Shown here piece after piece: positions 40 through 22,546 of a stretch of 64,000 bases of DNA. Position 1 is the first letter of the stretch. Each line of letters starts with the position of its first letter. This stretch comes from Chloroflexota bacterium (GTDB taxonomy: Bacteria; Chloroflexota; Anaerolineae; JAAYEA01). Below the pieces are notes generated by a model that saw nothing but the letters and a program-made list of their open reading frames with translations, searched no databases and was not told where the DNA came from. The stretch is taken from positions 1 to 64,000 of the forward strand of contig JAIOAV010000001.1 in the NCBI GenBank assembly GCA_019873665.1. The letters are read 5' to 3'. A program made the position numbers and the translations under genes.

Positions 40-97
40 TCAGCTCGTATCTGGCATCTGGAGATGACAGATGGACAGAAGAGAACGGAGGAAGAAT

Positions 98-3000
98 ATG
101 TCTCGAAAACTTCACAGAAAAGCAACGTTCCCTCGAGCGCTGGCGGTAGCATGCCTCGTCGCGATGATCTTTGGGTTGTTTGCGCCTGCGCTGCCCGCAT
201 CCGCCCAGCAAGGCCTCGCCTTCAATACCCTGCGCATCTATGGGTTGGAAGAGGAAGGTGAGGGCTTGCCGGAAAAGACGGCTGGCCTGGCGGGTGCAAC
301 CGATCAGCTGACGGGGCTGGTGGTTGAGGATCCACCGTACACCGATCCGCGAGCGCCCTTCTTGCCACAGCACGAGCAGGCGCCCGAGATGGACTCGGTA
401 ACGTGGAACCCTGTTTGGATGTACGAGAACCAGACCTTTGACGAGAACCAGGCCAAGGGGCTGTACGACAAGATCTTTGCTGGCACCCTGAACGCTTCGG
501 AAAAGGTTTGGCTTCGCGAGTGGTATGAGCCCAACCATTGGGACAAGGACCTCAACGCCAACAGCATCCAAGACGCCCCCGACGAGCAGTATCCGGCCAT
601 CATGCAAGAGTACACCTACATGCTGATGGAGCCCAAGCTCGATACGGACAAGCCGGAACCAGCGTGGGGTCGCGTTGGCGACACCAGCTTTGTGTTTCCC
701 GTGGGCATGCGCGCGTCCGACCTGTTCAATGGCTCTGGCTTTGTCGACACCTCCTCCGACAATGCCCGCTACGGATACGGTCTGACCAGCCTCGACGCCA
801 ACTTTGACGGTATCCCCGATATCGTGTATGTCGAGAGCGAGCTGACCCTCTTTGCGGAAACGGAGATCGCGGCCGATTTCGACGGCGATGGTGTGCTGGA
901 TCCTCTGGATCGGGACACGACGCCGCTCAACGGCAACGAGCTGGCCGTGCTGCGCCTCAATTCCATTCCGGTGGCCCGGGGTGGCTATATTCAGTTCCTC
1001 GATCATATGGTGCAGTTGCGCGATGTCTTTGATGACAGCGTGCTGCTGGACATCTACTATCTGGGTGACATCGTGCCGCGTCGTTTCAACCGCTCTGTCA
1101 CACTCTATACCCGTGACATGGCGCTGGCGGGCACTGATGGTCCTGCCCAGGTGATCACCTCAGTGCGCAACGGCGGCACCGGCACCAACATGTGCAACTT
1201 CCCCACCGGTCCCTGGTTCGTCTACCTGGCGAGCGTGGATACGGTCGAGGAAAGCGCCCGCCTGATGTTGGGCCGCGCGCTCGGCAACACCTTCTCTGGC
1301 ATGGAAGATCGGCCCTATAGCAAGGATGTGCGTCCGGGCGATCCCTGGTTCCTGAAGCGGTTCTATGTGGATGGGCACGAGTACAATGTTACAGCCCTCT
1401 ACACCCGCAACGGCGCCAACATCGAATACGCCTATCGTTGCGCGAATGGCAATGGCCCGGCGAGCTGCGATCTGGACTGCAACGATGATCGTCGCATTGA
1501 CCTGCTCGGCCCGGCGGATCCCACCGAGTTCGAGTTCATCACGCTGCGCACGCCGATCCCCAAGGTGCCGACCCGCATCGAGCAGCATTCAGTTACGCTG
1601 CAGCACTATCTGCCGTTGGACTATCTCTCGATGCTGCCGCCTTATAACTATGAGCACTATATCTTTGCCGACGTGCAGGAGATCAGTGCGTTCGCCACGA
1701 GCTATAGCTGGGTGGACTTTATCGGCCCGTTGATCGGCCCGGTCCCGCCTGTCCTGCAGAAGCATGGTCCCTACCCGTATGTGGTTGAGACCAGCGCTCG
1801 GCGGACGGTCTACACCGATATCCGCGAGATGCGTCACTTCTATGTGCGCGAGCTGCCGAACCCGCAGTTCAGGGGCCAGCTCCTCGAGCTATACGCTGAG
1901 GATCTGGGAGTGTACCCAGAGGCCGAGTACTGGTATGCAGAGCGCTTCGAGGTGCTGCCGAACCAGTACACCGAGCTCGTCTTTCCGGATATCAGCGAGA
2001 CGAGGACCGGCGCCAGAACGCCTGACCTCTACTTGCTGACCAGCGCCTTCTGGGCGCCGCAGGCGGACTACCGGCTCTGGATCCAGGATCAGTCCTCTCC
2101 CATCATCTGGACAGGTGATCGCGTCAAGTTCTGGTATGACCCGCACACCGGCGGCAAAAAGTACAAGGATGATCAGGGCGTCCGCATCTATGGCCGCGGC
2201 AACGAAACCGCCGGCGACCGGAGCGCCACTGATCCGGTGATCTCTGCGCCGGTTGAGGTTCCGCCGTACACCGACCCATATGCGCCCTTCAACCCGAAGA
2301 ACGCGCAGGCGCCGGTGAAGGATATCCTGACCTTCAACCCGATCTATATGGATGAGGAGCATCACGGCCAAGAGCTGCTGAGCAACCTCTACCACTCGAT
2401 CTCGGTGGAGGAAGGGGATGCCCGTGAGAAGGTCTTCTTCCGGATGTGGTATGAGCCCGAGTATGTAGACAAGATCTTGCGCACCAACCCTCTGGTTCAG
2501 TACACGTTCCCGGCGTTGATGCAAGAGTTCACCTACATGTTCGTGGATACCAACGGCGTCGTGGGGAATCCCACGCATGGCCAGCCTGGCACGAGCCACT
2601 TTATCTTCCCGATCGGCACGCGAGCGGAGCAACTCCCTGCGCCGATCGACGCCGAGCTGCCGAACTCGCTGATCCCGAGCTGCGGCTATGGCCTGACGAC
2701 CTTCGATTCGGACTTTGATGGACAAGAGGATATCGTTACCATCCACAGTGAGCAGAGCCTGGCGGCGATGACCGGCGTGGGCGCTGACTTTGACGGTAAC
2801 GGCTCCATTGACCAGCTCATGTCCGCGGAAGGCGTGGCGGCTGGTGGTGCGCTCAATGGCGAAGAGCTGGTGATCTTTGCCGTCGAGAACATCACGCTGC
2901 GCCGTGGCGAGAGCGCTATGTTCCTGGATCACATGGTGACCCTGGAGAACGTGACGCCGAACGGTGCGGAGCTCCAGTTCTGGTACACGGGCGGAGGCCT

Positions 3001-5305
3001 CCACAGCTATGCGGGCGGGGTCTACTCGCTCCATCCCGACAAGATCGGCCTCGCTGGCCTCTATGGCGTGCGCGACATGGCGATCGTCACTCGCACTCGC
3101 GTCCGCCGCATCGCGGCCGGGCAGTCGAACCTTGGCCAGACGGACGGCGCCTGGTTCGCCTGGGTGCAGGCCATCAATACCACGGCGCCCGCGCGGGAGA
3201 CCGTGAACCTGGTGATCGGCCGCGCCCTCGGGGCGACGCATTCGGCCATTGATAATGGCGCGGCGCAGCATGACATGGCGCAGGGCGATCCTTGGTACCT
3301 GAAGCGCTTCTTCGTGGATGGACACGAGTACAATGTCGTGGCGATCCGCGTGCTGCCGGCTGATGTGGTGAACCCCGGTGATGAAGACTGGGAGTTCAAG
3401 TACATCACCATCCGCACGCCGGTCCCCAAGGTGAACTTTGTCAACACGCAGGATTCGCAGAAGCTGGAAGGCTACTTCCGCGGCGACGATCCGATCTGCG
3501 GTGATACGAGCATCATCTCTGTCATGCCGCCGTTCAACTATGAGCACACGATCGTGCGCGATATCCAGGCGGAGCAGACGGAGGATTGCGTGGGCGACCT
3601 GGTCTTTAACCGGCCGCCGCTGGTGATCCGCATCACGGACGAGTCTCGCGAGCCGCAGTTCTTTGGCGAGCTAAAAGAGCTGCTGTATATGACCGGGACG
3701 CTGTCGTCGCCAGTGTGGAGCGTCGAGCAGTTCAACACGCTGCCCGATCAGTACACGGAAGTGCAGTTGCCGCCTGGTGAGCTGTACCACCTGACGCTGG
3801 ACTGGACGACCGATGAGATCGAGATGGCGGACTGGGAATACGAGTCGTGCAGCATCACCACGACGCTGCCGGCGATGGAAGATCCCATGCGCGTCCAGTT
3901 CTGGTATGACCCGACCGACCCATATGACATCTATGTCAATGATGAAGTCGTCGAGTGCCTAGGTGTGACGGTGCGCGGTGTGGTGCACGCGTACAGCGGC
4001 GCCTGCCATGCCACGCACTATATCATCACTGCCGAAGGCGCGACGCTCTACATCTTTGACTCCACGGGTCTGCTGGGGCAGTATGTCGGGCGTGATGTAA
4101 CACTCACCGGCTGCTGCTACGATACCGTGGTATGCGAGCCCGGCATCGAGGTCACTGATCCGGGCGACATCATCCCGCACGCTCCGGCCACGGCGACGCC
4201 GACCCGCACGCCGACGACCGGGCCTACCGCAACCCACACGCCAACGCCGACCCGCACGGCCACGCAGCCGACGGTGCCGGTGAGCGCGACGCCAACGGTG
4301 ACGGGCACGCCGGTAACTGGCGCGACCCCGACGCCGCAGGCAGGCAAGGGCCACATCTCGGGTGTCGTTCGCCTCGAGGGGCGCATGAACCATGCAGGTA
4401 CAACGGTCTCGGTGCCGAGTGTGCCCGGCGCCAACGCGGTAACCGATGCCAGTGGTTGCTTTACGATCTATAACGTGCCCGCTGGCACCTACACGGTCGT
4501 GGCCAAGATCAGCCGCTACCTCTTCTCGCAGAAGAGCGATGTGGTCGTGAACGCTGGTGGAACCACGACGCTGCCGGAGGTGGTGCTGCGCGGTGGTGAT
4601 GCGAACGACGACAACGTCGTTGATATCTTTGACCTGGTGATCCTGGGCCTGGCCTACAACAGCACGCCCGCCGACCCGGATTGGGACGCTCGCGCTGACA
4701 TCAACAATGACAACGCGGTGAACCTGTGGGATTTGGTGCTGGTTGGCACGAACTACAACCGCACTGCACCCACCAGCTGGTCTATCCTCTCGCTCACCAA
4801 GGCATCCAAGACGGCGCTGGAAGCGGCGCAGGCCCGACTGGCCGTCGTCGAGGATAGCGGTGATCTCGTGGTGGAGGTGCGTGTCAGCAAGGCGACGCAA
4901 CTGTACGGTGCCGAGTTCGAGCTCTCCTTCGATCCCAGCGTCCTGGTCGTGCGCGACGCCGATCTAGGACAGGCCGGGGTGCAAATCGAGGGTGGCGACC
5001 TCTTTGCGGCGGACAGCGCCTTTGTCATCGAGAACAGCGCGGATAACACCAAGGGCATCGTCCGGTACGCACTGACGCTGCTGCGGCCCGCTGAGCCAGT
5101 GAGTGGCGAAGGCGTGGTGGCGCGCATCCGCTTCCGTGCTCGCGCCGAGAAGAAGGCGATGGTGAGCATGCCGTATCTCAGCCTCTACAGCAAAGCAACG
5201 GAAAGCGTGCAGGAGATCACCGGAGTGCGGCTGCTCGTCAACATACCGGCCAAGTTCGACAAGGAACTGACGCCTCCGATGCTGCTGAAAGGCGCAAACC
5301 AGTAG
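98..5305 (+). CDS. Secreted multidomain protein with duplicated core, dockerin-like and cohesin-like domains
   Basis: Secreted protein of 1735 residues; no enzymatic role can be named. The start at 98 is preferred to an in-frame ATG at 71 because GGAGG (87-91) lies six bases before it. Residues 1-38 are a Sec signal peptide. Two diverged copies of a unit of about 640 residues follow (about 79-715 and 722-1350). Each opens with PPYTDP and later carries LKRF-VDGHEYNV and FWYDP phrases. A Thr/Pro linker (about 1362-1416) leads to a carboxypeptidase-regulatory-like beta-sandwich (about 1418-1498), a pair of dockerin-type calcium loops (DANDDN and DINNDN, about 1499-1555) and a cohesin-like domain (about 1570-1720). 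Having both interaction modules suggests an assembling or structural surface protein. The domain calls come from motif recognition. The duplicated core matches no family I can name. Confidence 0.8.
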   Translation: MSRKLHRKATFPRALAVACLVAMIFGLFAPALPASAQQGLAFNTLRIYGLEEEGEGLPEKTAGLAGATDQLTGLVVEDPPYTDPRAPFLPQHEQAPEMDSVTWNPVWMYENQTFDENQAKGLYDKIFAGTLNASEKVWLREWYEPNHWDKDLNANSIQDAPDEQYPAIMQEYTYMLMEPKLDTDKPEPAWGRVGDTSFVFPVGMRASDLFNGSGFVDTSSDNARYGYGLTSLDANFDGIPDIVYVESELTLFAETEIAADFDGDGVLDPLDRDTTPLNGNELAVLRLNSIPVARGGYIQFLDHMVQLRDVFDDSVLLDIYYLGDIVPRRFNRSVTLYTRDMALAGTDGPAQVITSVRNGGTGTNMCNFPTGPWFVYLASVDTVEESARLMLGRALGNTFSGMEDRPYSKDVRPGDPWFLKRFYVDGHEYNVTALYTRNGANIEYAYRCANGNGPASCDLDCNDDRRIDLLGPADPTEFEFITLRTPIPKVPTRIEQHSVTLQHYLPLDYLSMLPPYNYEHYIFADVQEISAFATSYSWVDFIGPLIGPVPPVLQKHGPYPYVVETSARRTVYTDIREMRHFYVRELPNPQFRGQLLELYAEDLGVYPEAEYWYAERFEVLPNQYTELVFPDISETRTGARTPDLYLLTSAFWAPQADYRLWIQDQSSPIIWTGDRVKFWYDPHTGGKKYKDDQGVRIYGRGNETAGDRSATDPVISAPVEVPPYTDPYAPFNPKNAQAPVKDILTFNPIYMDEEHHGQELLSNLYHSISVEEGDAREKVFFRMWYEPEYVDKILRTNPLVQYTFPALMQEFTYMFVDTNGVVGNPTHGQPGTSHFIFPIGTRAEQLPAPIDAELPNSLIPSCGYGLTTFDSDFDGQEDIVTIHSEQSLAAMTGVGADFDGNGSIDQLMSAEGVAAGGALNGEELVIFAVENITLRRGESAMFLDHMVTLENVTPNGAELQFWYTGGGLHSYAGGVYSLHPDKIGLAGLYGVRDMAIVTRTRVRRIAAGQSNLGQTDGAWFAWVQAINTTAPARETVNLVIGRALGATHSAIDNGAAQHDMAQGDPWYLKRFFVDGHEYNVVAIRVLPADVVNPGDEDWEFKYITIRTPVPKVNFVNTQDSQKLEGYFRGDDPICGDTSIISVMPPFNYEHTIVRDIQAEQTEDCVGDLVFNRPPLVIRITDESREPQFFGELKELLYMTGTLSSPVWSVEQFNTLPDQYTEVQLPPGELYHLTLDWTTDEIEMADWEYESCSITTTLPAMEDPMRVQFWYDPTDPYDIYVNDEVVECLGVTVRGVVHAYSGACHATHYIITAEGATLYIFDSTGLLGQYVGRDVTLTGCCYDTVVCEPGIEVTDPGDIIPHAPATATPTRTPTTGPTATHTPTPTRTATQPTVPVSATPTVTGTPVTGATPTPQAGKGHISGVVRLEGRMNHAGTTVSVPSVPGANAVTDASGCFTIYNVPAGTYTVVAKISRYLFSQKSDVVVNAGGTTTLPEVVLRGGDANDDNVVDIFDLVILGLAYNSTPADPDWDARADINNDNAVNLWDLVLVGTNYNRTAPTSWSILSLTKASKTALEAAQARLAVVEDSGDLVVEVRVSKATQLYGAEFELSFDPSVLVVRDADLGQAGVQIEGGDLFAADSAFVIENSADNTKGIVRYALTLLRPAEPVSGEGVVARIRFRARAEKKAMVSMPYLSLYSKATESVQEITGVRLLVNIPAKFDKELTPPMLLKGANQ

Positions 5306-5431: not shown

Positions 5432-5600
5432 GAGCACAAGTCGTCAATCCAGTACCTTACCATATGATGTCTGGCGAGTGCATACCCACAGAGCCAAGGA
5501 GACCACGTGCGCGTGTGGACTAGCTTTATCCCCCCAGATCCTGCGGCTGCTCACGTGGGTATGTGAAGGTTATCTGTTCTACCCAGAAGGAGGGAGAAGG

Positions 5601-6758
5601 ATGAAGGTGAGGCGTATGAGTTGGGCAAAAGCGATTAGCGTCGGCATCGTGATGGTGCTCTTGCTGGGCATGCTTCCAGCAGCCAGCATGGCGAATGGAA
5701 CCACAGTCATGGTTCAGCCGGGCTCGGATAGCATCGCGGTGGGAGGCACCACCACAGTCAGTGTCAGAATCGAGGGGGTTACCGATCTGTATGGTGCTGA
5801 AGTCCACATGACTTTCAGCCCCAGCATCGTCCAGGTGGTAGATGCTGACGGCAACTCGGGCAATGGCGTTCAGGTCGCCGCTGGCGATATCTTTGCCGGC
5901 AAGAACGCTTTCAATGCGCTGAATGCGGTCAACAACGGCACTGGCACGATCGACTATGCGATCTCGCTCCTCGGTGAACCGGCTGGCATTACCGGTGCCG
6001 GCAATCTGTTCACTATTACCTTCCGTGGCGTAGCGCCCGGACTGAGCGCGGTGGCGTTCTCGACCGTCCTGCTGGCCTCGCGCGCCGGTGGTCAGATCTC
6101 GGCCAGCTCCGTTAACGGTGCTGTCACGGTGACTGGCGCTCCCCCGGCGACAGCAACACCAACCAGCCCTGCGGCCACCGCAACGGCGACCTCCCCTGCC
6201 GCCACAGCAACGGCTACAGCTACCTCGATCCCCGGCACGGTCTGCACCTATGTCGTGCAGTGGGGCGACACGCTCTATCGTATCGCCCTCCGCTATAACA
6301 CGACGGTGAGCCATCTTGTCACGCTGAACGGCCTGGCGAACCCGAACTATATCCGCGCGGGCATGACGTTGAAAGTGCCCTGCGTGACCCCTGTGACGCC
6401 GGTGCCTGTCACGCCAGTGCCGGGCACGTGCAGTGGCGTCATCTACACCGTGGTCAGCGGCGACACACTTTCCAGCATCGCTCGCCGCTACGGGGTGACG
6501 CTCTCGGCCATCCTGGCGGCCAATTATATCCCGAACCCCAACTACATCTGGGTCGGGCAGAAAATCTGCATCCCTGGTGTGAGTGGACCGACCGTCACGC
6601 CGCAGCCAGGATGCCGCGCGTACTATACGGTGCTGCCGGGCGATACCCTGTTGGGCATCGCGGCCAAGTTCGGCACAACCTACTGGGCAATTGCTATCGC
6701 CAACAACATCCCCAACCCGAACTTGATCTTTGCTGGCCGCACTCTCTGTATCCCGTAA
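5601..6758 (+). CDS. Secreted cohesin-like protein with three LysM domains
   Basis: A 385-residue exported protein. ATG 5601 is chosen because GGAGGGAGAAGG lies immediately upstream and residues 1-30 then form a clear signal peptide. Residues about 31-180 are a cohesin-like beta-sandwich (LYGAEVHMTFSPSIVQVV and a GDIFAG turn resemble the cohesin domain of the previous gene). A Thr/Ala/Pro linker follows. Three LysM repeats lie at about 213-261, 279-325 and 337-385, each with a GDTL motif and a paired NPN-I-G ending. Cysteines flank the repeats and may form disulfides. LysM domains bind N-acetylglucosamine polymers such as peptidoglycan, so the protein probably fixes a cohesin-like receptor to the wall. 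The anchoring role is inference. Confidence 0.85.
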   Translation: MKVRRMSWAKAISVGIVMVLLLGMLPAASMANGTTVMVQPGSDSIAVGGTTTVSVRIEGVTDLYGAEVHMTFSPSIVQVVDADGNSGNGVQVAAGDIFAGKNAFNALNAVNNGTGTIDYAISLLGEPAGITGAGNLFTITFRGVAPGLSAVAFSTVLLASRAGGQISASSVNGAVTVTGAPPATATPTSPAATATATSPAATATATATSIPGTVCTYVVQWGDTLYRIALRYNTTVSHLVTLNGLANPNYIRAGMTLKVPCVTPVTPVPVTPVPGTCSGVIYTVVSGDTLSSIARRYGVTLSAILAANYIPNPNYIWVGQKICIPGVSGPTVTPQPGCRAYYTVLPGDTLLGIAAKFGTTYWAIAIANNIPNPNLIFAGRTLCIP

Positions 6759-6890: not shown

Positions 6891-9230
6891 ATGATAAAAG
6901 CTAGGGCATGCTCTCCTCTGACCGTCATCCTGCTCGCTCTGCTGCTGCTACAGCCTTTGTTGAGCCAAGCTGCCGCCGCACCATCGCGCGACGCGTCGCT
7001 GGCGCAGATCGCCAAAGTCAGCATCCAGCCGGCTGTCCAGAGCGTCATGGTGGGGCAGGATGTCTTTGTAGAGGTCGTGATTGAGGATGTGGTGGATCTG
7101 TTCGGCCTTCAGATCGCATTGCAGTTCTGGCCCGAATACGTGATCGTGCCAGAGGATTTCGACGCGATGCCATTGGTGGATGGCATTCAAATCGAGGGGG
7201 GACAGATCTTTGGTGGCCGCCCCATCTTTGAAGCGCCTCTGGTGGAGAATATTGCCGACAATGAGGCGGGCGAGGTGCGCTATTCTACGGGTTTGATGGG
7301 CCGTCCGGGCGTGTCTGGCAGCGGCGTTCTCATGCGCGTCAAGTTCCGGGGCGTTCAGGTGGGTGCCACATCCCTGCTCCTGAGCAAAGTTAGGCTGGTG
7401 AACTCTGCCACACAGGAGATCAGCGTGTTGGTACAATCGGGCGGCGCGATAGACGTCGTGGCAGCGGGACCGACATGGACTACCACTCCGACCACGACGC
7501 TGACGCCGACACGAACGCCAACGGGGACTAATACGGTGGGTGCGACGCCGACCCCCACGCTGACCGGGACGGCGACACGCACAGCGACAGTGACCAACAC
7601 GGCCACCGTGACGCGCACACCTACGCTGACGCCGACGCCAACGGTTTCGCCGACGCCGACCGTCTCGCCCACGCCGACAGCCACCCTTGTCAAAAGCGTG
7701 CAGATGCGACTGGACCCCGCGACGGACAATGTGATCGTTGACGAGATCTTTCCCTTGCAGATTCGCATTGACGCAGGATCGCAACCTGTGGATGCCGCCA
7801 AGGCGCGGCTTGACTTTGATCCCGCGTTGCTGCAGATCGTCAACAGCGATGGCTCTCCCGCCAGTGCGATCGTGCCGGGCAGCGACCTCGGCAACGTCGT
7901 CGAGAACAGTGTGGATAACGTTGCCGGCAAGATCAACTATCAGGCGAATGTGTCTGCCGCACCCTACCCGATGGGGACCTTTGTGCTGGCGACGGTGTGG
8001 GTTCGAGCCCTCGCTCCCACCGCCGGGACGGTCATCTTCTTTAGCAGCGCTGCCCCGCGGGAAAGCGATGTGCTGTTTCGTTACACCAGCGTGCTTTTGG
8101 CCACACACCCGGCCACTATAGTGATCAGCGCCACCGGCCCCACGCGCACGCCCTCCCATACGCCGACAATCACGGTGACGTCCACAGTGACAGCGACATC
8201 TCCGGCGACAGCGACGCCCACGGCGACTTGGACGCCAACCCGCACGGCTATGCCAACGGCCAGCGCCAGCCCGACGGTGACGGCGACGCCCAGCCGAACC
8301 CGGACCGCCACCCCCACTCCGCGTCCCTGGTCTGGCAAGACCCACTTGCCGCTGGTCACCAATCTCTACCCGCTACCGCCGACTCCCACGCCCACCGCGA
8401 CCGCGACAGCCACACGTACGCCAACGCGCACGGCGACGCCTACCAGTACACCGACCCATACGGCGACATCTACGGCGACGGCCACTGCGACGGCCACTGA
8501 CACCGAGACGCCGACCGGCACCCCGACGATCACTCACACGCCGACGGTTACGCGCACTGCTACGGCTACGGCGACGCCGACGAACACTCTTACGCCAAGC
8601 CACACGCCGACGGTCACGCACACGCCGAGCATCACGCCGACGCCGACGATCACCAGCACTGGCACACCGACGCCCACCCGTCCTCCGATTGAGCAGCTTG
8701 TGGTGGACCCAGGGTTTGAGCAACACAGCCCCGCATGGGTGATCCCGCCAGATAGCACCTACCCAGCGGCGTACGCCAGCGAGCGCCAGCATGAAGGGGT
8801 GTGGTCCATGCGAGCGGGTATCGTTTATGGGCCGGACCAGTATAGCACCTCGGCGTTCCAGCAGACGATCACGCTGCCGTCGGACCTGCGCTCGGCGATT
8901 TGCCGCTTCTACTACTTCCCGATCACCAATGATGTGGATGGCGACCATCAGGCGTTCATGGTCATACAGGATGGCACAATCTATCCGGGCTGGCAATATC
9001 TGAGCAACGAGCGGTGGTGGAAGCTCTCCGAGTTCGGCCTGTTACACTGGGCGGGCAAGACGATCACGCTCCGCTTCCAGGTATTCAACGATGGCGACGG
9101 CAAGACCACAGCCATGTACGTGGACGATGTACAGGTGATCGTCGAGCGTTGGGGAAGCACAGCGCCAGAGGTGATCCATCTCAGTCGCGATGCGAGCGGG
9201 CTGGGACCGGGGTTGGTGCTGAAGAGATAG
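6891..9230 (+). CDS. Secreted protein with two cohesin-like domains, Thr/Pro linkers and a C-terminal beta-sandwich
   Basis: A 779-residue secreted protein. Residues 1-28 are a signal peptide. A first cohesin-like domain spans about 38-190, with DLFGLQIALQFWPEY and a GGQIFGG turn. A Thr/Pro linker reaches about 265. A second, more diverged cohesin-like domain lies at about 268-413 (DAAKARLDFDPALLQIV). A second linker of nearly 190 residues follows, interrupted near 480-497 by KTHLPLVTNLYP. The last 180 residues start LVVDPGFEQ and resemble a carbohydrate-binding jelly-roll (FQQTITLP, ITLRFQVFNDGDGKTTAMYVDD segments). The linker DNA is a run of imperfect ACG-CCG repeats. It is probably a cell-surface or matrix scaffold; ligands are unknown. 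Confidence 0.8.
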   Translation: MIKARACSPLTVILLALLLLQPLLSQAAAAPSRDASLAQIAKVSIQPAVQSVMVGQDVFVEVVIEDVVDLFGLQIALQFWPEYVIVPEDFDAMPLVDGIQIEGGQIFGGRPIFEAPLVENIADNEAGEVRYSTGLMGRPGVSGSGVLMRVKFRGVQVGATSLLLSKVRLVNSATQEISVLVQSGGAIDVVAAGPTWTTTPTTTLTPTRTPTGTNTVGATPTPTLTGTATRTATVTNTATVTRTPTLTPTPTVSPTPTVSPTPTATLVKSVQMRLDPATDNVIVDEIFPLQIRIDAGSQPVDAAKARLDFDPALLQIVNSDGSPASAIVPGSDLGNVVENSVDNVAGKINYQANVSAAPYPMGTFVLATVWVRALAPTAGTVIFFSSAAPRESDVLFRYTSVLLATHPATIVISATGPTRTPSHTPTITVTSTVTATSPATATPTATWTPTRTAMPTASASPTVTATPSRTRTATPTPRPWSGKTHLPLVTNLYPLPPTPTPTATATATRTPTRTATPTSTPTHTATSTATATATATDTETPTGTPTITHTPTVTRTATATATPTNTLTPSHTPTVTHTPSITPTPTITSTGTPTPTRPPIEQLVVDPGFEQHSPAWVIPPDSTYPAAYASERQHEGVWSMRAGIVYGPDQYSTSAFQQTITLPSDLRSAICRFYYFPITNDVDGDHQAFMVIQDGTIYPGWQYLSNERWWKLSEFGLLHWAGKTITLRFQVFNDGDGKTTAMYVDDVQVIVERWGSTAPEVIHLSRDASGLGPGLVLKR

Positions 9231-15390: not shown

Positions 15391-15407
15391 GCGTGTACCC
15401 GGCATGT

Positions 15408-15436
15408 TTGCCAGACGCTCACGATCAAGCTACAAT
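15408..15436 (+). promoter_or_regulatory. Sigma-70 type promoter for the small cohesin/dockerin gene
   Basis: TTGCCA (15408-15413), a 17-base spacer and TACAAT (15431-15436) point rightwards, back-to-back with the alcohol dehydrogenase promoter. The translation start follows about 80 bases after the expected transcription start. Confidence 0.55.
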
Positions 15437-15523
15437 GCGGGGGCGTTAACATACGCAGCCTGTGGCGGGTGCGCCCCGCTCGCCAGCGCTGCACCACCCT
15501 TTCGGCTCGCGAGGTTCTGCACC

Positions 15524-16519
15524 ATGACAGATCTTCGGAACAGGCGAACGAACGCTGCCCGCGCCTGGTCTGTGGCTGGGGCTGCGTCTCTCTGCATCTT
15601 GATCTGCGCCGCGTTGGGCGCCGCAGCCTCTGCCGTCACGGTAGTCCTGACACCGGCTACTGTCATCGTCTCGCCTATGAACACCTTTGGTGTGGAAGTG
15701 ATGTTGCGTACCGGCAGCCAGCCGGTAGATGGCGTGCAAGTCTATCTCACTTATGACCCCGCAGTGCTGCAGGTCTTGAGCGCTACCCCCGACGCAACAG
15801 CATTGCCCATCGAGATATTGCCCCCGGCGTGGGATAATGCCACGGGCGCGCTGGCCTATGCTGCCGGCATATTGAGCGAGCCTGCCCCCTCCGGCGACTT
15901 GCGTGTGCTGACCATTCGCTTCCGGGCGCTATCGCCGCATCCGGGCAGTACTATCGCTTTTGCCACCGCAGACCCTGCCCGCACCACCAAGGTATCGTAC
16001 AGCGGCGCGATCTTGGCGGCGAACCTCACACCGAGCGTCGTAACGGTCGTGTCAGCCACTCCAACGCCGACCTCTACGCCCCCTACGACTACGGCCACCG
16101 TATCCGGGCGGGTAGTGCTGCAGGGCCGCAGCGACCACAGCGGCGCTCTGGTGTGTGTCGGCGGGCTCTCCACGACCACCGATGCCAGCGGTGTCTATGC
16201 CTTGTCTCCCGTGCCCGGCAGCTACGGGGTGACTGTGTCGCTGGGCGGATACCTGTCCGCCACGTGCCCTGGTGTTGTGGCCAGAGCGGGCGCGACGACC
16301 CAGCTAACGGAGGTAACGCTTCTGGCCGGGGATGTGGACGGCGATTGCCAGATCGGCCTCTTTGACTTGGTGGTGCTGGGCGCGCGATTCAACCAGTTGC
16401 CGCCTGCGCCGCCGCCGCATCTGGATCTGAACGCTGACGGCGCGTTGAATATCCTCGATGTGGTGCTTTTGGCCGGCAATTACGGACGCTTCTGCCCCAA
16501 TCCCTGGGCGTGTCCGTAA
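15524..16519 (+). CDS. Small secreted protein with cohesin-like, carboxypeptidase-regulatory-like and dockerin-like domains
   Basis: A 331-residue exported protein. ATG 15524 gives a basic N-terminus and a signal peptide (about residues 1-37); the ribosome binding site is weak. Residues about 38-185 are cohesin-like (DGVQVYLTYDPAVLQVL). A short Thr/Pro linker leads to a carboxypeptidase-regulatory-like sandwich (about 192-270, SGRVVLQGRSDHSGALVCV). The final 60 residues hold two dockerin-type calcium loops (DVDGDCQIGLFDL and DLNADGALNILDV). The order sandwich-then-dockerin repeats the tail of the protein at 98-5305, although there the cohesin-like domain follows the dockerin. It could bridge partners by offering one cohesin and one dockerin. 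Which cohesin binds which dockerin cannot be told. Confidence 0.8.
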   Translation: MTDLRNRRTNAARAWSVAGAASLCILICAALGAAASAVTVVLTPATVIVSPMNTFGVEVMLRTGSQPVDGVQVYLTYDPAVLQVLSATPDATALPIEILPPAWDNATGALAYAAGILSEPAPSGDLRVLTIRFRALSPHPGSTIAFATADPARTTKVSYSGAILAANLTPSVVTVVSATPTPTSTPPTTTATVSGRVVLQGRSDHSGALVCVGGLSTTTDASGVYALSPVPGSYGVTVSLGGYLSATCPGVVARAGATTQLTEVTLLAGDVDGDCQIGLFDLVVLGARFNQLPPAPPPHLDLNADGALNILDVVLLAGNYGRFCPNPWACP

Positions 16520-16549: not shown

Positions 16550-19500
16550 ATGAGGGATATGGCCGATAATCCCGCAACACCATTGACACAGCCAATCTTG
16601 CGGTTTACCAGGCCGTTCTGGCGCGCCAGCGCGGAGCGACTCTATCGCGGCCGCCTGCGCGCTATGCTGGAGGCGCAACTTGCGCCGACGCAGGCACTGG
16701 CGCAGGTTTGCCCGCTTTTGGGCCCGGGACAGGCGGCGGTCATGGTGGGGAGCGACCGATTCGCAGCGGTACGCTATCTGGCGCGCGGTCCGCGACTGGT
16801 GTTGCTGGGCGAGGCTGGCGCCGGCAAGACCACGCTGCTGCGGGCCGCCGCGCTGGCGCTGGCCAGCGACCCCGTCGGCCTGTTGCCGGTGTTCGCCTCG
16901 CTTGGCACCTACCGTGGCGGCGACCCGGTCGCCTTTCTGCGGGGCAAGGTGGCTATCGCGGAATCGCGGCTCGCGACGTTGGTGGAGCGTTTCCTGCGCA
17001 CTGGCGAGGCGGTCTTCTTTCTGGATGGCGCGGACGAGATCCCGACGGATGAGCGGGAGGCTGCGCGCCGCGCCTGGCTCGCCTTGATAGAAAAGTACCC
17101 TCGGGCGCGCGTGATCGTGGCGACCGGCTTGCTAGAGGCTGAGCTGTGGACCCACCTCTCTGCATCTCCACTAACTGTGGCGCGGATCGTGCCGGTGCCG
17201 CGCCATCAGGTGGCGGCGGTGGCCGAGTCGTGTCCATCGCTGGCGGATGCTGCCCTGCTCGCTGCCGACCCAGATGCCTGGCGCACACGTCTCTTTCTGG
17301 CGCTCTATGTGGCGCAGAGTCAACGCGGCGTGCCGCCGGCATCGTCAAACCGCGCACTCTTGCTGCGCGACTGGATCGTCCTCCAATCGCCGGATTCCGT
17401 ACAGCGGTGGGAGTTGGCCACCCTGGCGCGGCAGATGCTGCCGGAGCGCGTGTTCGCCGCAAATGGGGGCTTGGAGGCCTTGCTCCTGGCGGCGCCGGAC
17501 GGCTCGGGCGACTGGCGTACGTTTTCCTCCCCCTGGGTGCAGGATGCGCTGGCAGCGACCGCGCTGGTTGAGATGGACGAGGAAAGCCTGCCGCTGGCCA
17601 AGCGCGTGGCGCAGATCGCCTGGTGGCGGCCCACCGCGCTGCAGGCTGCACTCGCCACGCCCGAGAGATGCGCGCAGATGGTGCGTCGGATTCTCGGCGT
17701 GGGTGGGGATCGTGCCATCCTGTTGGCGCTGGCGTGTGCGGCGCTGCATCCCGCTGCGCCACAGGCGACCGAGGCGGTGCGCGACGCGCTATGGCGACGC
17801 ATGGCGCGCGAGGGATTGACCGGACACTGGGAGGATGCCAGCGCGCTGCAAGAGGTGGCCGGGCCCGCGGCGGTGCAGTGGATTGCCGACACGATGGCCG
17901 TGGCCAGCGGGGTGCAGCAGGCACAGCTCAATGCCCTGCTCGGCGACATCGGCGGCCTGGTGGCCGCCGAGTGGCTGGCCACACGTGGGCTGGATGATGC
18001 GCGGGAGCTGCTCGCCGTTACAGCCAGCCGCGCTCTCGAAGGGATGGAGGGAGAGGCCGCGCTGGCTCTTGTAGCTCGCCTGCACGATCCCAAAGCAGAG
18101 ATTCGCGACAGGGCGATAGACATCCTCGTCCGGATCGGCGCGCCCGCCGTGGGCGCGCTGATGACGCAGCTCTATCGCGGCCCGGAAGAGACGCGGGTTC
18201 TCGCCGCGACGGTTCTGGCGCGCATTGGCGCCTTTGCCGTGGATGCGCTCTTTGCCGTCTTGCGGCAGCAGAACGAGGAGGTGCGCGGTGCCGCACGCCT
18301 GGCGCTCCACCAGATGAAAGATCACTCGGCGATCCCTTTTCTCGCTGCCGGAGTGGAAGATGCGCATCCCCTCGTGCGGCAGGAAGCCATCTTGGCGCTG
18401 GGGCGGCTCGGCGGTGAGGAGATGCTGCCTTACCTGTTGCGTGGCCTGCGCGATGATGCCAAAGAAGTGCGCCTGGCCGCTCTCTCCGCCTTTACCGAGC
18501 CGACGGTGCTGCGCGCCGTTCCCGTGCTGGTGCAACTCCTGCGCGATCCGGACAGCGTCGTCCGCCAACGGACGGTGGCGCTTTTGCAGGGCGTTGGTCC
18601 GGCCGTGATTGAGCCGCTGCTGGTCGAATTCCAGGACTATAACTGGGACGCACCCGGCGCGCCCACCACTGTCATCTCAGGTATTGGTCCGCCAGTCATC
18701 ACTCCGCTCTCCAGCGTCCTGTTGGATCGGCGCTGGCGCATGCGACGTGCGGCGGCCAAGGCGCTGCAATGGATACCGCATCCCCAGACGGTGTCGGCGC
18801 TGGCGATGGCGCTGCAAGACCGAGACGCGAACGTGCGTGAGGCGGCTGCACGGGCCTTGGGGCAGATTCGGCGGCCAGAAGGGGCAGCGCCGCTCATGTC
18901 GGCGCTGCGCGACCGCAGCGCGACAGTGCGCCGTGCGGCGGCGTGGGCGCTGGGCGAGCTGGAGCTGCGACCAAGTAGCGGCCTCCTCTCGCTGGCTCAG
19001 GCGCTGATTGCTGCCTTGCGCGACCGCGATAGCGAGGTCCGTGAGGCGGCAGTGCGGGCGCTGGGCAAGATTGGACGCCCCGCCGTGCCGCCTCTACTGG
19101 AGGCGCTGCGCTCGCGGCAGGCGCAACGCTCTCGCCCCATGATCATCGCCGCGCTCAAGGAGATCGCCGATCGCAGCGCCGTGCCGGCGTTGCTAGAGGC
19201 GCTCGCCAATACCGATTGGCATGTGCGCCAAGCAGCGGCCGAGGCGTTAGGGGAGATCGGAGACACGCGTGCCATTGAGCCGCTGGTGCGAACAATGGGC
19301 GATCGGCATGACGGGCCGCGTTGGGCGGCAGTGGATGCGCTGGCTAAGCTTGGCGCGCCAGCGGTTCCGGCGCTCATCGAGGCGCTAGGCGTTACCGAAT
19401 GGCGTCTCCGCTGGGCTGCGGTTACTGCGCTGGGCAAGATCGGCGAGCCGGCGGTATTGCCCCTATTGCAGCTTTTGGCGAGTGGTGGTCAGGAAGTGCG

Positions 19501-19696
19501 TTGGGCGGCGGAAGCGGCTCTGGCGCAGACGGGCGAGATCGCCGTGCCCGCGCTCACCCGCGCCCTGCGCAGCGCGCAGCCGGGCCTGCGCACTGCTGCC
19601 GCCGAGACCCTCGCTCAGATAGATTCGCCATTAGCGCAGGAAGCGCTCGCCAAGTACCAGTCCAGTAGTTGGTCGCGGCAGGGGCGGCGTGAGTGA
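16550..19696 (+). CDS. NACHT/STAND-like ATPase with a long HEAT-repeat array
   Basis: A 1048-residue protein with no signal peptide or membrane segment. The P-loop LLGEAGAGKTTLL lies near residue 87 and the Walker B-like VFFLDGADEIP near 155, the arrangement of NACHT/STAND NTPases. From about residue 505 to the C-terminus it is built of HEAT-like (PBS-lyase type) repeats of about 31 residues, with recurring VREAA-RALG-IG-P-A-P-L patterns. STAND proteins are regulated switches used in signalling, transcription control or phage defence; here no effector domain is recognisable. Either of two in-frame ATGs (16550 or 16559) could be the start, with no strong ribosome binding site. It stands alone after the cohesin/dockerin gene, and a converging gene follows. 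Confidence 0.75.
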   Translation: MRDMADNPATPLTQPILRFTRPFWRASAERLYRGRLRAMLEAQLAPTQALAQVCPLLGPGQAAVMVGSDRFAAVRYLARGPRLVLLGEAGAGKTTLLRAAALALASDPVGLLPVFASLGTYRGGDPVAFLRGKVAIAESRLATLVERFLRTGEAVFFLDGADEIPTDEREAARRAWLALIEKYPRARVIVATGLLEAELWTHLSASPLTVARIVPVPRHQVAAVAESCPSLADAALLAADPDAWRTRLFLALYVAQSQRGVPPASSNRALLLRDWIVLQSPDSVQRWELATLARQMLPERVFAANGGLEALLLAAPDGSGDWRTFSSPWVQDALAATALVEMDEESLPLAKRVAQIAWWRPTALQAALATPERCAQMVRRILGVGGDRAILLALACAALHPAAPQATEAVRDALWRRMAREGLTGHWEDASALQEVAGPAAVQWIADTMAVASGVQQAQLNALLGDIGGLVAAEWLATRGLDDARELLAVTASRALEGMEGEAALALVARLHDPKAEIRDRAIDILVRIGAPAVGALMTQLYRGPEETRVLAATVLARIGAFAVDALFAVLRQQNEEVRGAARLALHQMKDHSAIPFLAAGVEDAHPLVRQEAILALGRLGGEEMLPYLLRGLRDDAKEVRLAALSAFTEPTVLRAVPVLVQLLRDPDSVVRQRTVALLQGVGPAVIEPLLVEFQDYNWDAPGAPTTVISGIGPPVITPLSSVLLDRRWRMRRAAAKALQWIPHPQTVSALAMALQDRDANVREAAARALGQIRRPEGAAPLMSALRDRSATVRRAAAWALGELELRPSSGLLSLAQALIAALRDRDSEVREAAVRALGKIGRPAVPPLLEALRSRQAQRSRPMIIAALKEIADRSAVPALLEALANTDWHVRQAAAEALGEIGDTRAIEPLVRTMGDRHDGPRWAAVDALAKLGAPAVPALIEALGVTEWRLRWAAVTALGKIGEPAVLPLLQLLASGGQEVRWAAEAALAQTGEIAVPALTRALRSAQPGLRTAAAETLAQIDSPLAQEALAKYQSSSWSRQGRRE

Positions 19697-19738: not shown

Positions 19739-22546
19739 CTACGGCTGAGGCGTCGCCGTCAGGACTGGCAGGGTGATGAGCGTAGGGCCGGACGCTGGCG
19801 TGCTGGCCGGCGCTGTTGGCGTCGCCGTCTCGGTGGGCGCCGGCTCTGGTGTCACCGTGTCAGTCGGCGTTACCGGCAGGATCACCAGCGTTGGACCGAC
19901 GGCCGGTGCAGGCGTTGGCGTTTCGGTGGGTGTTGCGATATCCGTTGGCGTTGGCGACGGCGTGAGCGATGCAGTGGGCGATGGTGATGCCGTAGGCGTT
20001 GGCGAGCCGGTCAGCGTCGTGGTGGGCGTCGGCGCCTCGTTATAGACATAAACACGCACCCGGGCCTCTGCCACCTGCCCTTTGCGATTGACTACCTGCA
20101 CGCGGAGGGTGTGTGGCCCGTTCGTCAGATGACGCGTATCCCAGAGCCCGAGGATTGCGGCTTCCACCTGCATAGTGGAGGCGGACGGTATATGGCCCCA
20201 CCCGTGCGGGTCATGTGAGACCCCATATTCCAGCACGTAATGACTGAAATTGCTGATCACCGCTGTGCCCTGCACCGCAACGATGCCTCCAACTGTCTGC
20301 CCTTCTGCCGGATAGATGATCTGCAAGTGCAACCCTTCTGTATGCACCGAGCAGCGATCCACCGGCGGCTGGACAAAGCCTTGCGCCTCCGCCCACTGGC
20401 GATAGGCAAGAGGGAACACCGTGAGGTGTCGGTGCTCCACCTGATCTGGCGGGCAGAACTCTGTGGCGAGCTCGCCGCTCACCCTGCAGACGCCCACCAC
20501 GGTGTGTACCGGGCAGCTCTCGCTCGGCACTGCCTCCTCCAGAAAGAGATCAGTGCGCGCCGGCGGGCAATCTTCGGTGCGTGGATGACCGGAAATGGGG
20601 CAGACCGGCACCGATACGATGCCGGGTGGCATCTCGAAATCGCGCGTCGGCCGTCCGGCTAGTGCTGCCTCCATAAAGTTGTGCCATATGGGGCCCGCGC
20701 CGCGCACGCCGGTAACGCTCGCCATGGGCGAGCCGTCCGAGTTTCCCACCCATACGCCGGCCACCAGATCAGGTGTATAGCCAATCACCCATGAATCGCG
20801 ATAGTCGTCTGTCGTGCCGGTCTTGGCTGCTGCCGGACGGGAGAGCATCAGCGCGTTCTGCGCGCCGTAAGCAGGCGTGCGTGCCTCGTTGTCCGACAAG
20901 ATGTCGGTGATCAGGTAAGCCCTACGCGCGTCCAACACACGCTCAGCGCGCTTTGGCTGGCTCTTCAGGTCGAAAAGTACCGTGCCATTATAGTCGATAA
21001 CGCGCAGGATCGGCTGCGGGGAGACCAGCAGCCCTTGGTTGGCAAAAGCCGCGTAGGCGCCCACCATCTCCAGCAGCGTCACCTCACCCCCGCCAAGCAC
21101 CAGGGAGAGGCCATAGTCGGTGCGGTTGAGGGAGCGGATGCCCAGACGCTGCGCCATTTCCAGTGCCGCCGGCAATCCCAGCTCATAGAGCGTCTGCACC
21201 GCCGGAATGTTATAGGAACAGGCCAGCGCCTGCCGCACGGAGACCGGCCCATGTTCCTTTCGGTCGTAGTTCACCGGCACATACGGCGGGTTGTTCCCGT
21301 TCGGGTATTCGGTGCGTACATCCATTACCATCGTCGCCGGGTTCCAGCCTCGCTCAAATGCGGCGGCATAAACCACCGGCTTGATAGTAGAGCCGGGCTG
21401 GCGCGGCTGCAGCGTTACGTTGACCTGGCCAGCGATCGTCTCATCGAAAAAGTCTACACTGCCCAGCATTGCCAGTATCTCGCCGCTTTGGGGATCCATC
21501 GCCAGCACCGCGGCATTCGTCGCCTTTTGTGCCTTGAGGGTGGCGATATGTTCGCGCGCGGCCTTTTCCGCTGCCATCTGCATGGAGAGATCGAGCGTAG
21601 TATATACCTGCAGGCCGCTACGATACAGGCCCGTGCCATACTGCTGCTCCAGGAGCTGGCGCACATACATCACAAAGTGCGGCGCTTTGATCTCGTACAC
21701 CTGCGGCCGCAGATTCAGAGGCTCAGCGCGTGCCCGGTCCGCCGTCTCGGCGGTGATGTACCCCTCGCGCACCATCAAATCCAACACGACGGAGCGGCGT
21801 GAAAGGGCTGCGTCTGGATGTAGATACGGATCCCACAGCACAGCCGACTGTGGCAATCCCGCCAGGAGCGCCGCCTCCGCCAGCGTTAGGTCCTGCACCT
21901 GCTTGCCGAAATACGTCTCCGCTGCCGCGCCGATCCCGTATGCCAGATTGCCATAGTAGATCTCGTTCAGGTAGATTTCCAGGATCTGATCTTTGGAATA
22001 ACGCCGCGTGATCTCGGCAGCCAGGATCGCCTCTTTGATTTTGCGATCCAGCGTCTGCTCGCGTGTGAGATAAAAGCTCTTGGCGAGCTGCTGCGTGATG
22101 CCGCTGGCGCCGGACACGATCTCCCCCTCGGTGATGTTGTAGTAGAGAGCGCGGGCGATCGCAAAAGGGTCAAAACCGGGGTTGCGGAAGAACGTGCGGT
22201 CTTCTGTGGCCACTGTGGCCCAGATAAGCGTCTGCGGGATATCCTCGATGGACACCATCGTGCGCCGTCCACCGGTCGGGTCTATCACCTCGTAGAGCAG
22301 CGCTCCGTTGCGATCATAGATCTTGGTGCTCTTGAATGTCGCTGAGCGGGCCAACAGATCATCCGGCGAGGGCAGGTCGCGGGCAATGGACATATAACCG
22401 ACGACCAGCGCGACAGTGCCCAGCAGCAGGATCAGGACGGTGAGCACTGCGGCCCACATGATGCTGCTGAGATAGTAGGCGGTATCGAACGAGGCACTGC
22501 GCCGCGGCTTGGCTGCGCGCTTGTTGGTGTAGGAGTACCCTGACAA
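19739..22546 (-). CDS. Class A penicillin-binding protein (glycosyltransferase/transpeptidase) with Ig-like and Thr/Pro tail
   Basis: A 935-residue bifunctional peptidoglycan synthase. The TTG start at 22546 is supported by GAGGAAGG nine bases ahead. One transmembrane helix spans about 29-52. The glycosyltransferase domain has the catalytic Glu in ATEDRTFF (Glu115) and the QQLAKSF motif. The transpeptidase domain has the Ser nucleophile in QPGSTIKP (about 386), SYN, and KTGT (about 575). After it comes a Cys-containing segment (about 640-740), a penicillin-binding C-terminal Ig-like domain (about 745-835) and a Thr/Pro-rich tail of about 95 residues. The enzyme polymerises lipid II and crosslinks stem peptides outside the membrane. 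The tail may reach into the wall or carry glycans; that is inference. Confidence 0.92.
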   Translation of the reverse strand: MSGYSYTNKRAAKPRRSASFDTAYYLSSIMWAAVLTVLILLLGTVALVVGYMSIARDLPSPDDLLARSATFKSTKIYDRNGALLYEVIDPTGGRRTMVSIEDIPQTLIWATVATEDRTFFRNPGFDPFAIARALYYNITEGEIVSGASGITQQLAKSFYLTREQTLDRKIKEAILAAEITRRYSKDQILEIYLNEIYYGNLAYGIGAAAETYFGKQVQDLTLAEAALLAGLPQSAVLWDPYLHPDAALSRRSVVLDLMVREGYITAETADRARAEPLNLRPQVYEIKAPHFVMYVRQLLEQQYGTGLYRSGLQVYTTLDLSMQMAAEKAAREHIATLKAQKATNAAVLAMDPQSGEILAMLGSVDFFDETIAGQVNVTLQPRQPGSTIKPVVYAAAFERGWNPATMVMDVRTEYPNGNNPPYVPVNYDRKEHGPVSVRQALACSYNIPAVQTLYELGLPAALEMAQRLGIRSLNRTDYGLSLVLGGGEVTLLEMVGAYAAFANQGLLVSPQPILRVIDYNGTVLFDLKSQPKRAERVLDARRAYLITDILSDNEARTPAYGAQNALMLSRPAAAKTGTTDDYRDSWVIGYTPDLVAGVWVGNSDGSPMASVTGVRGAGPIWHNFMEAALAGRPTRDFEMPPGIVSVPVCPISGHPRTEDCPPARTDLFLEEAVPSESCPVHTVVGVCRVSGELATEFCPPDQVEHRHLTVFPLAYRQWAEAQGFVQPPVDRCSVHTEGLHLQIIYPAEGQTVGGIVAVQGTAVISNFSHYVLEYGVSHDPHGWGHIPSASTMQVEAAILGLWDTRHLTNGPHTLRVQVVNRKGQVAEARVRVYVYNEAPTPTTTLTGSPTPTASPSPTASLTPSPTPTDIATPTETPTPAPAVGPTLVILPVTPTDTVTPEPAPTETATPTAPASTPASGPTLITLPVLTATPQP

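Follow-up and report, generated by a model that had tools for sequence, protein, structure and literature searches.

In clostridia, anchoring scaffoldins bear type II cohesins that receive dyads formed by an X-module and a dockerin. Cellulosome attachment itself is described, in the available passages of PMC9012536, as relying on SLH or sortase anchors; type II cohesins are distinguished by a crowning helix that lies between their strands 6 and 7, and the fold of the X-module resembles domain II of carboxypeptidase D (PMC5141474, in the part concerned with these modules). The same part of PMC5141474 describes Clostridium thermocellum CipB (Cthe_1806), a protein of 2177 aa that comprises unknown modules and ends in an X-module and a type II dockerin, and proteins with S-layer and dockerin domains are reported for most ANME-2c genomes (PMC9012536). 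Concerning Chloroflexota, the excerpted text of PMC4877987 states that neither cohesin nor dockerin was identified in five Anaerolineae genomes plus strain UNI-1, and the excerpts of PMC13319060 and PMC12488501 describe the envelope of a relative as layered, including a protein layer and a PilO-LysM protein, cohesins being unmentioned therein. How the Chloroflexota envelope is constructed and how it is used as an anchoring platform are presented as a live question in the excerpt of PMC13319060.

We analyzed a window of 64,000 nucleotides from a Chloroflexota bacterium (the whole stretch, i.e. positions 1 to 64,000 of contig JAIOAV010000001.1), which contains an open frame, ORF2, running from the ATG at 5601 to a stop at 6758 (Table 1). 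The motif AAGGAGGG, which ends 6 bases 5' of this ATG, was rated a good ribosome-binding site; a scan for promoters and terminators near ORF2 gave matches at chance level only. The protein consists of a signal peptide, read from the sequence as a hydrophobic stretch followed by ASMA-NG, one cohesin, a low-complexity Thr/Pro/Ala linker and three LysM repeats, the last of which forms the C-terminus, and it lacks a catalytic domain. PF01476 scores 172.7 bits on ORF2, against a curated cut-off of 20.9, over three stretches. The fusion of one cohesin to three LysM repeats in a single protein, as claimed by the first-pass annotation, is thus borne out by PF01476, a PDB profile search and the AlphaFold model.

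Table 1. Coordinates of ORF1–ORF4 and of their domains in the window
Feature	Position	Strand	Basis
ORF1, 1744-aa secreted protein UNIT-UNIT-X-dockerin-cohesin, presumed partner of ORF2	71..5305	+	Pfam
ORF1 first UNIT (~600 aa), no known family	227..2173	+	AlphaFold, pLDDT 82.9, pTM 0.88
ORF1 second UNIT, ~33% identical to the first	2177..3943	+	identity to first UNIT
ORF1 X-module-like domain (Pfam CarboxypepD_reg)	4355..4588	+	Pfam, PDB profile
ORF1 dockerin, group A	4595..4744	+	two calcium-loop motifs, DANDDNVVDIFD and DINNDNAVNLWD
ORF1 C-terminal cohesin, group 1	4847..5212	+	Pfam, cohesin profile, tree
Ribosome-binding-site-like AAGGAGGG	5587..5594	+	read from sequence
ORF2, secreted cohesin–LysM x3 protein, predicted anchor, 385 aa	5601..6758	+	ORF, Pfam, PDB profile, AlphaFold
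ORF2 cohesin, aa 33–179 (approx.), group 1	5697..6137	+	profile, structure, tree
ORF2 LysM repeat 1	6249..6380	+	PF01476, 58.3 bits
ORF2 LysM repeat 2	6444..6575	+	PF01476, 69.5 bits
ORF2 LysM repeat 3	6624..6755	+	PF01476, 58.1 bits
ORF3, secreted, two cohesins, weak MAM-like C-terminal match	6891..9230	+	Pfam, cohesin profile
ORF3 first cohesin, group 1	7017..7442	+	cohesin profile, tree
ORF3 second cohesin, group 2	7704..8045	+	cohesin profile, tree
ORF4: cohesin, X-module-like domain, dockerin	15404..16519	+	Pfam, cohesin profile
ORF4 cohesin	15641..15970	+	
ORF4 dockerin	16325..16471	+	

PF00963, when run on the ORF2 cohesin domain alone, gave no match even at an E-value of 10. A profile built from an alignment of 23 relatives (A1) matched type II cohesins in the PDB, led by 3l8q (E 1.2e-12), which comes from ScaB, an adaptor scaffoldin of Acetivibrio cellulolyticus. 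The 13 PDB matches of profile A5, built on the tree-defined group 1 cohesins (see below), are without exception cohesins, either from A. cellulolyticus ScaB or from C. thermocellum anchoring proteins. In the AlphaFold model of ORF2 (mean pLDDT 79.6), the domain folds into a confident β-sandwich, with a pLDDT of 85–97 in most ten-residue blocks and of 78 in one. The best 50 rows of its structural alignment are all cohesins, the top match being 4uyp_A (Z 17.4, 1.9 Å over 134 residues), and Foldseek likewise retrieved cohesins with the ORF2 model, save a LysM protein ranked first. Type I cohesins match the model as well as type II cohesins, or slightly better, and no helix of four residues or more, hence no crowning helix, is predicted between aa 33 and 179. 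The domain is therefore a cohesin with a type II-like sequence, which we do not call a type II cohesin because only its sequence is nearest to type II, its structure being tied between types I and II and the crowning helix being absent from the model.

The LysM region of ORF2 has as its best single PDB match 4b8v, the chitin-binding fungal effector Ecp6 (1.4e-22), with bacterial peptidoglycan LysM proteins close behind (LytE 8i2e, 4uz2 and 4xcm). The best-supported reading is that the LysM array serves as a predicted non-covalent wall anchor for the cohesin, because (i) the SLH domain PF00395 has no match in the genome, in a scan where four of 14 control genomes were positive; (ii) the window carries a gene for a bifunctional penicillin-binding protein (19739–22546), implying that peptidoglycan is synthesized and available; (iii) a hydrophobic C-terminal tail replaces the LysM repeats in relatives. 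Two sortases are encoded in the genome, but the C-terminus of ORF2 is a LysM repeat. Six cysteines lie in the LysM region, one pair around each repeat, a pattern shared by the family mate of this species. Among 14 cohesin proteins with three LysM repeats (one per genome), four have six cysteines, four have none and the remaining six have 1, 1, 2, 9, 9 and 9, which rules out conserved disulfides as a family trait. The extracellular disulfides suggested by the first-pass annotation are possible, although these cysteines vary between relatives; the disulfides, if formed, would be a local refinement, given that four of the 14 relatives do without cysteine.

Relatives of the ORF2 cohesin were sought in 396 genomes of the class and found in 145 of them, 70 of which were examined at their best one or two loci each. 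In this sample, which was ordered by similarity and hence biased toward ORF2, a cohesin and LysM share a single open frame in 33 of the 70 genomes, a cohesin is accompanied by a hydrophobic C-terminal segment and no LysM in 14 (the segment being defined by a 19-residue mean hydropathy of at least 1.9 inside the last 70 residues), and neither feature was seen with the cohesin in 23, including G186, where runs of N lie between the cohesin and an overlapping LysM frame. The hydrophobic tail probably spans the membrane. At the level of the phylum, a whole-protein search was swamped by LysM-only proteins and the cohesin profile was used instead: it matched in 33 of 400 sampled genomes. Thirty loci from these 33 genomes, considered with flanks of 1.5 kb so that frames may be cut, contained three fusions, all in the class of ORF2; none was present in the 20 loci from other classes, and five of these 20 show the hydrophobic C-terminal segment. 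The first-pass annotation had envisaged that the architecture might prove both common and already characterized: common it is within the class, and no characterization was found in the open-licence papers searched, which describe no natural cohesin–LysM protein (subscription papers may mention one).

ORF1, immediately upstream, carries an X-module followed by a dockerin whose two calcium loops can be read as DANDDNVVDIFD and DINNDNAVNLWD. This part of the protein matches A. cellulolyticus ScaA (4wi0, E 3.8e-12; 4u3s, 7.4e-12) and C. thermocellum CipA (2b59, E 1.2e-10), the matches spanning the X-module plus the dockerin. The tandem UNITs occupy residues 54–1292 of ORF1. A giant protein of ~1,600–1,900 aa with two UNITs, an X-module, a dockerin and a cohesin precedes the cohesin–LysM protein in 11 genomes. 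More specifically, the cohesin-based search recovered 12 UNIT loci, of which 11 show a UNIT-UNIT-(cohesin)-dockerin-cohesin gene followed by a cohesin–LysM x3 gene, a selected count since these loci came from a search with the ORF2 cohesin; the two open frames are separated by -74 to 228 bp. In the twelfth locus (L083), a two-cohesin gene stands in place of the cohesin–LysM gene.

An independent search, in which the UNIT alignment was run against named genomes, yielded 29 loci, nearly all with tandem copies, whose records are labeled Chloroflexi, Chloroflexota, Anaerolineae, Anaerolineales, Ardenticatenales, Caldilineae or simply bacterium. A cohesin–LysM gene is present in seven of them, downstream of the UNIT gene in six, all on contigs that match genomes already counted above, and upstream in one; within more than 3 kb of sequence downstream of the UNIT, L177, L185, L188 and L195 have no such gene. 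Two loci (L175 and L180) associate a LysM x3 neighbor without recognized cohesin with a UNIT protein without recognized dockerin, and the remaining ones have other or truncated neighborhoods. Note that the upstream gene, at L171:3-1085 (+), also encodes a cohesin and three LysM repeats. As for the LysM x3 proteins of L175:13023-15338 (+) and L180:4741-7164 (+), about four repeated domains replace the cohesin, and the UNIT proteins beside them end in a domain that looks similar to these repeats. The joint lack of a recognized dockerin and of a recognized cohesin speaks for the pairing of the two proteins, but both dockerin-less loci, being near relatives, probably reflect one event.

The genome as a whole contains 13 dockerins and 20 cohesins detected by the profile, versus six by Pfam, so that standard annotation probably misses such cohesin–dockerin systems. 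In trees built on the 20 cohesin segments and on the 13 dockerins, six cohesins form group 1 (support 0.982), namely those of ORF2 and ORF1, the first of ORF3, and those of C80, C166 and C40, and the dockerins split (support 0.981) into group A, with five members having a long inter-loop linker (ORF1, ORF4, C12, C26 and C80), and group B, with eight members having a short inter-loop linker and a DFSLLR-like motif. Type II dockerins of cellulosomes sit on cohesin-bearing proteins, and the proteins of four of the five group A dockerins also bear cohesins. The group 2 cohesin profile matched ScaB more weakly in the PDB, as well as scaffoldin cohesins of the type I kind, and one group B X-dockerin matched the clostridial dyads much more weakly (1.8e-4). 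Altogether, the system recalls a two-tiered cellulosome, in which cargo binds the scaffold and the scaffold binds the wall, but it carries a different cargo: the domains borne by dockerin proteins are of the papain-family peptidase, CAP, CBM96, PPC-like and Ig-like kinds. Unusual cargo is exemplified by a dockerin-bearing papain-family peptidase (L076:5759-7756, +) and a dockerin-bearing CAP protein (L073:4590-6242, +). The same genome encodes a large secreted scaffoldin of 2989 aa (L069:664-9630, -) with Ig-like repeats (Big_1/Invasin_D3), an X-module, a dockerin and nine cohesin matches. In the window, ORF4 is directly followed by a gene (16550–19696, +) whose 1048-aa product combines a NACHT NTPase domain with HEAT repeats.

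We consider it likely that ORF2 is the wall anchor of a non-cellulosomal cohesin–dockerin surface system. ORF2 would be exported by means of its signal peptide, judging from its sequence; its three LysM modules would, as expected from their family, attach it non-covalently to the peptidoglycan of the producing cell; and its cohesin would act as a socket for X-dockerin proteins, foremost the upstream giant ORF1. We infer this pairing from the homology with clostridial type II cohesin/X-dockerin pairs and from synteny; sequence by itself does not fix it, because five other cohesins of group 1 and four other dockerins of group A exist in the genome. The missing crowning helix and the UNIT loci that have no cohesin–LysM gene also weigh against this reading. 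The C-terminal cohesin of ORF1 and the nearby cohesin–dockerin proteins may then chain further components onto the surface.

Could the cohesin of ORF2 be a mere Ig-like spacer devoid of a dockerin partner? Noncellulosomal cohesin folds can lack a known partner, and the fact that Pfam misses this cohesin also speaks for a spacer, but the genome has 13 dockerins, one of them encoded next door, and both the cohesin profile and the X-dockerin point to known binding pairs, which makes this explanation quite improbable. Somewhat less so, yet still unlikely, is the possibility that the LysM repeats bind foreign or sheath GlcNAc polymers (chitin, foreign peptidoglycan), ORF2 being a secreted adhesin that links cells to one another or to a surface, with its cohesin providing the connection to the dockerin proteins of the cell. 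The rank of Ecp6 among the LysM matches and the description of digester Anaerolineae as aggregating rather than attached to cellulose, in the excerpted text of PMC4877987, are in keeping with such an adhesin; however, the bacterial peptidoglycan proteins follow Ecp6 closely, and the hydrophobic tail that replaces LysM in relatives fits attachment to the producing cell.

The first-pass annotation placed ORF2 among cellulosome anchors, a framing which, contrary to the wall-anchor part of its interpretation, is not supported. An anchoring scaffoldin of a true cellulosome would account for the clostridial-type sequences of the cohesin and of the X-dockerin as well as for the 2989-aa protein, with its dockerin and nine cohesin matches. 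Yet a Pfam scan (E 0.01) of all 13 dockerin proteins, including an 88-aa fragment on C2, revealed no catalytic domain of a glycoside hydrolase, in an assembly that is 91.5% complete, comprises 185 contigs and may lack some enzymes; the related signals are a sub-cut-off match to Glyco_hydro2_C5, an Ig-like domain, in C79 and a CBM96 in C116. With SLH domains absent too, we regard a true cellulosome as very improbable and reject it.

The preferred reading, in which ORF2 anchors a surface system to the wall, raises the question of what ORF1 contributes with its UNITs. Foldseek returned no match to the UNIT model at an E-value of 0.001 or better, and the UNIT alignment, run as a profile against the PDB, gave nothing convincing. 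A slower structural aligner ranked the Methanosarcina S-layer structure 3u2g first (Z 7.1, 4.2 Å over 121 residues) and 3u2h third (Z 5.2) of 999 chains compared, scores that fall within the noise range stated for the tool. PF07752 (DUF1608, the Methanosarcina kind of S-layer) exceeds its cut-off in none of the 12 UNIT genomes; the one sub-cut-off match (E 0.18) falls inside a UNIT protein, at residues 198–234 of the UNIT of the window, where the structural match to 3u2g (206–390) begins, a hint only, as the profile positions have no assigned place in the chain numbering and Asp and Gly abound in this stretch. It is conceivable, and we put it forward tentatively, that in members of the Anaerolineae the UNIT protein forms an S-layer-like lattice coat held through its X-dockerin in cohesin–LysM proteins that are embedded in the peptidoglycan, with its terminal cohesin displaying dockerin proteins; the displayed cargo might then be peptidases, CAP and carbohydrate-binding proteins. 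If so, a lock of the cellulosome type would tether an S-layer, with LysM replacing SLH. Note that the NCBIfam S-layer label NF052345 (Kustd1514 family), which appears on ORF1 and ORF4, was discarded as S-layer evidence because the match is far below cut-off, covers only the linker and the X-module-like domain, and recurs at 25 places in the genome.

If the wall-anchor reading holds, the lock of the cellulosome, a type II-like cohesin and an X-dockerin, builds a cell surface instead of digesting cellulose, and does so in a large, mostly uncultured group where LysM repeats and a hydrophobic tail are interchangeable anchors; the ORF1–ORF2 locus would then be a testable candidate for the question of envelope anchoring in Chloroflexota. 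Among described proteins, the LysM-anchored autolysins and spore proteins such as LytE and SafA have a LysM array of the same family as ORF2, which differs from them in having no catalytic domain and in carrying a cohesin. Like CipB, ORF1 is large and secreted, with undescribed modules and an X-dockerin in its C-terminal region; unlike CipB, it carries a ~600-aa unit in two copies and, beyond the dockerin, one more cohesin. The cohesin–dockerin proteins of ANME archaea are likewise non-cellulosomal, with scaffoldin-like cohesin arrays and dockerin, and some combine an S-layer domain with a dockerin, but they are archaeal, a LysM anchor being unmentioned in section 32 of PMC9012536. A further parallel is provided by the clostridial anchoring scaffoldins (C. 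thermocellum SdbA and others; ScaB, ScaD and ScaF of A. cellulolyticus), which are the nearest PDB sequence relatives of the ORF2 cohesin and, like ORF2, oppose a surface-attached cohesin to X-module-dockerin dyads. Compared to them, ORF2 is anchored by three LysM repeats and not by SLH or sortase, its cohesin is shorter and has no crowning helix in the model, and its genome yielded no dockerin-bearing glycoside hydrolase. In conclusion, the predicted cohesin–LysM wall anchor, for which we found no description in the papers searched and which occurs in many relatives, is probably a variant on known cohesin–dockerin anchoring.
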